From a virus, in the IMG/VR virus record IMGVR_UViG_3300020477_000083, positions 1 to 33,198 of that record: DNA of 33,198 nucleotides. One strand, written 5' to 3'. Positions 13,330-14,677 of the stretch are shown piece after piece (the first letter of the stretch is position 1; the number at the start of each line of letters is the position of its first letter). The notes below the pieces were generated by a model. The model worked only from the letters and a program-made list of their open reading frames with translations. It ran no database searches and was not told the origin of the DNA. Both the position numbers and the translations under genes were made by a program.

Positions 13330-13354
13330 TATCTTCTCTTTTCTTTCGTTAATG

Positions 13355-13368
13355 AGCAGTCATCTGCT
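13355..13368. promoter_or_regulatory. Small dyad in the divergent region
   Basis: AGCAG (13355-13359) and CTGCT (13364-13368) flank a 4-base centre, with additional GAG/CTC symmetry around them. The dyad lies in the approximately 60-bp space between the leftward 241-aa gene and the start of the structured RNA. A shared operator is plausible. I cannot identify convincing -35/-10 boxes in either direction. Confidence 0.3.
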
Positions 13369-13390
13369 ACTCAGTTAAAAAACACAAGTG

Positions 13391-14120
13391 CCATGTGGTC
13401 GCTAGGCCTGTCAAGATCCCAAGCGCAGCGCAGCCGCCGAATCAGTTGTGTTACGAAACGGGTTCTTCGTAACAGAACTGACACATCTATGATGTGGGCG
13501 GTCGGCCCTCGGTTGGGCCGAGGCTCTCTTTACTGGCCTAGCGGCCACATGGCAAAGCCCCATTAAATTTCCCAAACCCACGGGGTTTAGGAAATTTCAT
13601 GCAACCGGCCCGTAGGTACGGGCAAATCCGCTTCGTTGCGGATTTAGGTTGTGCTCAACCTCCGGCCCCAAGGCCGGGGGTTCTTGCTTCCACGTTCATT
13701 GCGTGGAAGTGGATCGCTCCGATCCATTGAGCAGGGCCTTGTGTCAACTGAGAACCACCAGCGAGGTCCGGCGAAGCCGGGAAAGGGCCTTCGAATCGCC
13801 TTGGGTATCGGCGCTTTATTGCGCCGACGATTCTAATGGCCCGAGCGTCTGGAGGGGGCTCCGCCTTCCCTAAACGCTGGGAGGATGTCAAACGAGCTTT
13901 AGCTCGTTCCGACCTAGCGACTTCCGAATTACCGCAGCGAGCGCACAGCGAGTCGCTTCGGTCACGACATAATGTCGGGGCCGAGATTGGACGGAGGTCG
14001 AACGCCAAAGGCGTCGTCGCATCTCCGATGCGTTGCCTCCGGCCACTTAATTCGTGAAGGTTTTAGGGGCCGCAGAACCGCACCGTGTTAGCGGTGCCTG
14101 CGGCGCTCACTAAACCTTAC
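13391..14120 (+). ncRNA. Large ornate structured RNA (GOLLD/ROOL-like candidate)
   Basis: About 730 bases contain more than twenty nested inverted repeats and no credible gene. Domain A is closed by an 18-bp helix, 13391-13408 with 13535-13552. It encloses 13434-13438/13497-13501, a 15-bp hairpin 13442-13457/13466-13481, 13482-13487/13491-13496 and 13507-13512/13518-13523. Domain B holds 13565-13579/13583-13597, 13608-13614/13617-13623, 13624-13631/13638-13645, 13647-13651/13656-13660, 13662-13667/13672-13677, and 13679-13684/13751-13756 around two hairpins. Domain C nests 13785-13789/13838-13842, 13793-13798/13828-13833 and 13808-13814/13821-13827. Domain D includes 13891-13897/13902-13908, 13931-13940/13953-13962 and 13992-13997/14036-14041. 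Domain E nests 14054-14066/14110-14120, 14069-14075/14098-14104 and 14080-14085/14092-14097. Most G-U pairs favour the plus strand. The class assignment is inference. Confidence 0.85.
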
Positions 14121-14137
14121 GGACAACTCTAGCCCGA

Positions 14138-14260
14138 GGCACACCACAACAACCACACACAAATAAGTAAGTCACGGTGTACCCGGGTGGGTTTGTTTGG
14201 TATTTACCGGGTGTCACCTCGTTTTCTGACGGTGATCAACGTTTATAAGGGTGGTGTGCC
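14138..14260 (+). ncRNA. 3' structured extension of the large RNA
   Basis: GGCACACCAC (14138-14147) pairs perfectly with GTGGTGTGCC (14251-14260). The enclosed region contains 14176-14186/14207-14218, an 11-bp stem with one bulged U and one U-G pair on the plus strand. It follows directly on domain E and may be the 3' domain of the same transcript, giving about 870 bases in all, or a separate leader element. The final bases of the closing helix are shared with copy 2 of the 18-nt repeat. Confidence 0.6.
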
Positions 14261-14275
14261 GAGCCTCCCCCCCAC
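14258..14275 (+). repeat. 18-nt repeat, copy 2
   Basis: The plus strand reads GCCGAGCCTCCCCCCCAC, identical to the minus strand of 12515-12498. Five bases later TATGAT (14281-14286) resembles a -10 hexamer, but no -35 element is found at the usual spacing. Confidence 0.8.
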
Positions 14276-14548
14276 ATATATATGATTATCGGTGTTTTGG
14301 GGAGTTTGGTTCAGTTGTTTGGGGGTTGTGTTGGTTATGTCCTTGGTATCCTCCGAGTGTTGAGGCCTCTCTTGCCTTGACCGAGCCGTGCTGTGCTGGT
14401 CGCTCCGTGCCCCCTCGTTGTGTTGGGCCGTCGTGTCTGGACACGGAGTCAGATGCCCCTCTGACGGGCGATCGAACCGTTGTTAGCGGCGGGTCGTTAG
14501 AGAGTGTATCATTTTGGTTCTGGGGGTTGACACGTTTTGGAGATTTTT
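14276..14548 (+). promoter_or_regulatory. G/T-rich leader of the rightward operon
   Basis: These 273 bases hold no credible gene. The plus strand is conspicuously rich in G and T (for example GGTGTTTTGGGGAGTTTGG at 14291) before becoming more mixed. Two local hairpins occur: CGTGT/ACACG at 14432-14445 and GTCAGA/TCTGAC at 14448-14465. A GGAG ribosome binding site precedes the ATG at 14549. TTGACA at 14527-14532 has no partner -10 box. It is probably a long 5' leader of the rightward operon, or the 3' flank of the large RNA. Confidence 0.45.
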
Positions 14549-14677
14549 ATGGCTGAAAAAAAGCAAACTATTGTTGATAGAGAGCGTGCTCGTGTTGATA
14601 CGGAAGAAATTTTTCGGTTGATGCGTGGCGATGGTAACCAGTCCCGTATTAATGACGGGAAGTGGTCGCCGTCCTGA
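14549..14677 (+). CDS. Small charged protein (42 aa)
   Basis: ATG 14549 is preceded by GGAG at a spacing of 8. The product begins MAEKKQTIVDRERARVDTEE and ends with a short polar tail; it is highly charged and probably helical. It is the first gene of the rightward operon, ending eight bases before the next start. No family recognised, but the binding site and position are good evidence that it is translated. Confidence 0.6.
   Translation: MAEKKQTIVDRERARVDTEEIFRLMRGDGNQSRINDGKWSPS

Follow-up and report, generated by a model that had tools for sequence, protein, structure and literature searches.

What kind of element occupies the long gap between the divergent operons of an uncultured marine tailed phage, and what might it do? 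The window analysed here is a whole 33.2-kb record (33,198 nucleotides), in which a leftward early operon and a rightward late operon flank a structured RNA element (Table 1). A DNA search among isolated phages returned no close relatives of the window; relatives of its DUF932 protein were found in actinophages only, and its capsid is best matched by Streptomyces phages, so the host is probably actinobacterial. A small hairpin at 13352-13373, within the first early gene's 5' region, shows compensatory changes in two related loci, L003 and L011 (GAGCAG..CTGCTACTC, GAGCAGAG..CTCTACTC, GAGCGGAG..CTCCACTC).

Table 1. Features of the RNA element and its flanking operons, in window coordinates; minus denotes the leftward strand.
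Feature	Position	Strand or direction	Content or evidence
Early operon	4.7-13.3 kb	leftward	DUF932 protein, Cas4-like exonuclease
Ornate multi-hairpin domain; hypervariable, modular, mosaic among close relatives	13390..14137		folding z; alignments of relatives
Left domain, including the 18-bp closing helix	13390..13553		13 compensatory pairs in four sequences, 97.6% paired
Helix P1, closing a sub-domain beside the core	14138-14147/14251-14260		pairing in part of the relatives
Tract rich in G/T on plus and in C/A on minus, separating the ornate part from the core	14290..14345		alignments; most lineages read
Conserved core RNA module	14333..14512 (covariance model R1, 14341-14512)	minus	covariation, cmsearch, reciprocal model R2
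Pseudoknot	14355..14377; stem 1 14355-14359/14367-14371, stem 2 14363-14366/14374-14377	minus	both stems compensatory
Hairpin P2 (GACC.AGC/GCT.GGTC)	14379..14401	minus	99.4% paired, one compensatory pair
Long helix P3	14402-14409/14442-14450	minus	compensatory changes in 6 of 8 pairs, 98.9% paired
Hairpin P5 (GCCC-CUCUGAC-GGGC)	14455..14469	minus	invariant in 22 relatives
Hairpin P4 (CCG-UUGUUAG-CGG)	14477..14489	minus	conserved among relatives
Conserved extended -10; predicted leftward promoter, start near 14496	14503..14511	minus	TGATACACT on the minus strand
Late operon	from 14.55 kb	rightward	terminase phrog_38, 2012-aa ORF of tape-measure size, capsid

A sequence-only reading of this gap had proposed a multi-branched non-coding structure at 13391-14260, and its description of the fold is borne out. 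The ornate region folds at -437.9 kcal/mol, whereas its dinucleotide shuffles give -337.9 +/- 7.3, a z of -13.6 on the plus strand; z is -10.5 on the reverse strand and -0.4 for a control taken from another part of the window. The 18-bp helix 13391-13408/13535-13552, interrupted by the single pair U13399-G13544, is present as described and, as read from the sequence, grows outward by G13390-C13553. Among the four sequences that share the left domain, 13 of its 64 pairs are altered on both sides; at most one of 500 shuffles (0-1) scored as high on every measure, and slid controls were 34-45% paired. The closing helix is maintained by compensatory changes despite differing sequence in the relatives. 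Reading frames are not conserved in the ornate region, where module replacement and indels break all ORFs.

The ornate domain evolves as a mosaic. Among the 79 loci that terminase relatives yielded, three distinct relatives have ornate parts in common with the window, namely L081, L003 (with its near-copy L047) and L011. Whole modules are swapped or replaced between close relatives, the same site in other relatives carries unrelated yet likewise structured sequence, and the ornate part of more distant lineages is only weakly structured. At L046:3440-4290 and L048:2690-3520, one imperfect palindrome of ~600 nt replaces the multi-hairpin domain, with z values of -24 and -21 and nine double-compensatory pairs between both. 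Helix P1 is clear in the window, L081, L003, L011, L046, L025 and L027, with pairing variants such as GGCACACCAC/GTGGTGTGCC, GGCAGACTCC/GGAGTCTGCC and GGCATATCCCCC/GGGGGATGTGCC; it was not found in many others, and was rejected as a universal helix. Further right, at window positions 14254-14290, a conserved TGTGCCGA is followed by 20-21 variable bases and then TGNTNATC across lineages, a block that is promoter-like on the plus strand and matches no known consensus. The contigs of several relatives (L002, L007, L010, L013, L027) end within the equivalents of 14040-14372, as if assembly breaks there.

The region delimited by the sequence-only reading is real; its right end was misplaced, as the conserved element reaches about 14512, and the more important half, a core of ~180 nt to the right of the ornate part, was overlooked. 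Conservation over 14249-14512 ranges from 72 to 91% in about 25 relatives. In an alignment of 22 sequences, 96.7% of the cells of the core are paired and 11 pairs are compensatory, a level reached by 0 of 500 shuffles, so that covariation among relatives is found in the core as well as in the closing domain. The pseudoknot keeps an equal layout with different sequences in L113, L117 and L108, and P2 likewise has different sequences in group B. No sign of coding was found in the core, whose stops fall in varying frames across relatives. The most conserved part of the core is P5, which is common to the RNA-based replication origins of mycobacteriophages and occurs there in the compensatory variants GCCG/CGGC, GUCC/GGAC and CCCC/GGGG; in group B the P4 loop resembles UUGCNAG, and in mycobacteriophages it is UUGGCNAG. 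A 9-nt identity between the antisense of the 3' side of P5 and the 16S decoding region was dropped because the mycobacteriophage variants break it. Since the folding energy of the core is unremarkable in most relatives, an energy-only screen would miss it.

We searched for the core with a pattern scan based on the P5 sequence and with the covariance model R1. It occurs in marine and freshwater phages, as a single copy per record or genome, and wherever enough sequence is available it precedes the packaging or late genes. The phages that bear it differ in terminase, comprising a phrog_38 group, L106, L107, L109, L112 and L116 with the phrog_2 type, and L108 and L115; L108 also has an integrase gene. 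Across 84,980 prokaryote genomes, the pattern scan returned a single phage contig, which belongs to a marine MAG (L122), four matches attributable to chance in other contexts, and no cellular, host or prophage copy. Neither the core nor the ornate region matched Rfam, at gathering score across the window or at E up to 5 over 13330-14620, and the element is therefore not a GOLLD, ROOL, OLE or HEARO RNA. The earlier suggestion of a giant structured RNA, perhaps of a new class, gains support from the covariation and the lack of an Rfam match, while membership of GOLLD or ROOL is rejected.

The function of the core is approached through its homologues. Phage RNA-based origins were previously known from five mycobacteriophages (PMC7157519). 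In these, Wetzel et al. 2020 (PMC7157519) described a ~600-bp region that gives rise to a non-coding RNA running opposite to parA, is sufficient for plasmid replication without any protein (RedRock, Alma, LadyBird, Gladiator, Et2Brutus) and is necessary for stable lysogens in Alma and LadyBird; parABS was dispensable for replication, and Alma lacking ori grew lytically as normal (PMC7157519). A short search of isolated phages matched 139 mycobacteriophage records, and in phages with parABS (Rahalelujah, Changeling, Vanisoa) the motif lies immediately upstream of parA. P5 sits within the intervals that suffice as ori in RedRock, Alma, LadyBird and Gladiator, and within both published deletions that destabilise lysogens (PMC7157519). 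In the mycobacteriophage set, the cells of P5 and P4 are 100% paired and 7 of 11 pairs are compensatory.

The relationship holds in both directions of search. Model R2, built solely from 14 mycobacteriophage origin sequences, recovers environmental cores (L039, E 3.7e-12; L036, 4e-10; L113, 6e-9; L108, 2e-6), and its matches in the relatives cover P5 and P4; in the window its sole match is the core (E 5.8e-5), mostly via P5, which alone is well aligned. From the window side, R1 finds the cluster A4 phages Kampy, Peaches and LeoAvram (E 1.2e-7) and the Gordonia phage Coeur (E 6e-6). The common part is mainly P5-P4, to which the A4 phages add P3; group B has an additional hairpin following P4. 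Neither P2 nor P3 nor the pseudoknot gave a recognisable alignment to the mycobacteriophage origins. The core thus carries the conserved P5-P4 module of the mapped RNA-based origins, and on sequence comparison the homology of this module is solid. A full copy of the mycobacteriophage-type element was also seen in the Gordonia phage Daredevil (90 kb; L133:1501-1731), in a 1.2-kb gap from gene 11 to an HNH endonuclease gene, near the terminase. A query with the RedRock ori found no plasmids with an origin of this type. The right ends of D29 and RedRock (L160:480-600 and L161:370-500) contain a minus-strand stretch resembling a tRNA T-arm and acceptor (GGTTCGATTCC...), in which ARAGORN called no tRNA.

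Like the non-RepA prophage origins of the extrachromosomal cluster A phages RedRock, Alma, LadyBird and Gladiator, the window element is non-coding and carries P5 (with a YUCURAC loop) and P4 in that same succession, each showing compensatory changes; its promoter and RNA are predicted to run leftward relative to the motif, as they do there. Unlike them, it adjoins late genes instead of parA, with no parABS recognised, and has its own pseudoknot, P2, P3 and hundreds of nucleotides of hypervariable ornate structure. The non-coding right end of the A4 phages Kampy and Peaches resembles it in having P3-P5-P4, at the R1 score given above, and in lying between leftward early and late genes on the circular map; unlike the window element, this region is short and has no ornate domain.

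The strand of the core was assigned from the promoter and the homology, not from wobble pairs. The minus-strand motif TGnTACANT stands just outside the hairpins and is kept in the main group (with the exception of L027 and its kin, TGCTACACC) and in group D, and in group B the extended -10 is shifted outward, beyond the extra hairpin. It behaves like a predicted leftward promoter, in agreement with the published leftward RNA and with the wobble bias among the mycobacteriophage sequences (on the motif strand, AC 14 and GU 2). The plus-strand transcription proposed earlier from G-U pairs is rendered doubtful by this conserved -10 and by the leftward mycobacteriophage homologue, and such counts do not settle the strand: they tie in the marine core, and in the ornate domain they mildly favour plus (by symmetric counting, about 29:13 in nine related sequences and about 18:8 in a second count of wobble changes). 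Strand assignment from wobble pairs alone was rejected as ambiguous. With moderate confidence we place the core RNA on the minus strand, and two overlapping transcripts are possible. A sigma-70 promoter scan gave nothing above chance. In L106, L109, L112 and L116, the sequence after the core has TATCAT exactly 6 nt before the ATG or GTG of the first gene (4 of 4), a spacing that resembles actinobacterial leaderless mRNAs; this TATCAT overlaps the minus-strand -10.

Given the P5-P4 homology and the conserved leftward -10, our best reading, which we put at an even chance, is that the locus is a non-coding replication-origin element of the RNA type, belonging to an uncultured phage whose host is probably actinobacterial, and endowed with a giant hypervariable ornate domain. 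Transcription in the window phage, its direction and an origin function are what we infer from this, the last of them being about evenly balanced. In this mechanism, a leftward RNA would start at the conserved promoter just right of P4 and fold through P4, P5, P3, P2 and the pseudoknot; the folded RNA would help initiate phage DNA replication, perhaps by serving as a pre-primer or by regulating one, much as RNA II and RNA I do in ColE1. The likeness to ColE1 is one of proposed principle only, a structured RNA that initiates or controls replication, and no homology of sequence or structure is claimed. The ornate domain may be a fast-evolving structured extension, either of the leftward RNA or of one transcribed from the opposite strand.

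Several observations bear on this origin reading. Models for DnaB and Pol I found no match in nine related records, which is consistent with RNA-initiated replication, although other replication genes may be present. The single copy per genome and the actinobacterial host signal also speak for the origin reading. Neither parABS nor repA was recognised among the proteins scanned; as parABS is dispensable for replication in the mycobacteriophages (PMC7157519), an adjacent parABS is likely not essential to this class of origin. Conversely, because Alma without ori grows lytically as normal, a role in lytic phages does not follow automatically. In the window, G001 and G004 the minimum of the cumulative GC skew falls close to the element, but it tracks gene direction, and in G010 and G011, where genes run in the same direction on both sides, there is only a local skew switch and no genome-wide switch at the element; the skew therefore offers no independent support and was rejected as origin evidence. 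Counting against an origin, besides the unrecognised parABS and repA, the skew and the lytic growth of Alma, are the restriction of the common part mainly to P5-P4, the good alignment of R2 to P5 alone in the window, the negative plasmid search with the RedRock ori, the G/T-rich tract, which would favour an R-loop from a plus-strand and not a leftward transcript, and, mildly, the wobble lean of the ornate part.

The main rival, which we regard as unlikely, is that the element corresponds to a very abundant and stable RNA of ~500 nt that cluster A mycobacteriophages (L5, D29, StarStuff, Kampy) produce at their right end from the leftward early promoter. Such an RNA would serve lytic growth in some way other than replication, the core forming its 5' part and the early genes lying downstream. 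The position between leftward early and rightward late operons matches the circularised right end of Kampy, where P3-P5-P4 at 50710 lies downstream of a predicted promoter, TTGACA-17-TAGCGT at 50802-50830, and where the uncalled right end is transcribed very strongly (PMC4626039). Against this, the P5-P4 module was not found in the right ends of D29, RedRock and Bxb1, the start near 50,400 placed by the Kampy authors is left of the module (PMC4626039), and no leftward early operon follows in G010 and G011.

It seems improbable that the element is a plus-strand leader that heads the long late operon and acts on it in cis, for instance as a put- or EAR-like processive antitermination RNA. The element always lies directly upstream of the late or packaging operon, though the first gene varies, no terminator occurs from the core to that gene, and the wobble bias of the ornate part is mildly plus; yet the mycobacteriophage homologues precede parA or occupy the right end instead of standing before a late operon, the conserved -10 faces the opposite way, and no plus promoter was found left of the ornate part. 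Even less probable is a DNA-level site (cos/pac or a recombination site) whose hairpins act as DNA: many lineages have the element beside the terminase, folding is good on either strand and the wobble asymmetry is weak, but the element is common to phages with unrelated terminases and to parA-proximal origins, has a pseudoknot and long-range compensatory pairs, and in records with end repeats the genome ends elsewhere. The virion or packaging role raised earlier has no specific support beyond this terminase-adjacent location, and the homology points instead to replication initiation. Least credible of all is a trans-acting RNA that assembles an RNA-only cage as GOLLD/ROOL do (PMC12286853), to which the element is similar in its length, multi-branched fold, conserved and variable parts and phage origin, but from which it differs in having no Rfam match, no tRNA islands (ARAGORN called zero tRNAs in the window, hence no tRNA cluster near the element) and a different conserved core, with an ornate part that is replaced entirely from one close relative to another and is weak in numerous lineages.

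The structured RNA is real and previously uncatalogued, and a giant variable domain had not been described for RNA-based phage origins; the literature searched held no defined RNA structure for such origins and no homologues elsewhere. Our analysis gives these origins a covarying, searchable RNA core, ties them to the unexplained, strongly transcribed right-end region of the cluster A4 phages and extends the RNA-based origin module to marine and freshwater phages. More broadly, and only tentatively, a widespread family of structured RNAs may initiate replication without an initiator protein in actinobacterial tailed phages, both lytic and extrachromosomal, exceeding 1 kb in some marine lineages with a hypervariable ornate domain that is possibly diversified for compatibility of co-infecting replicons. 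Because its most conserved part is the module inside experimentally mapped mycobacterial phage RNA-based origins, what would otherwise be a giant RNA of unknown function gains a specific, testable candidate role, that of starting phage DNA replication, with P5 and P4 as the key residues.
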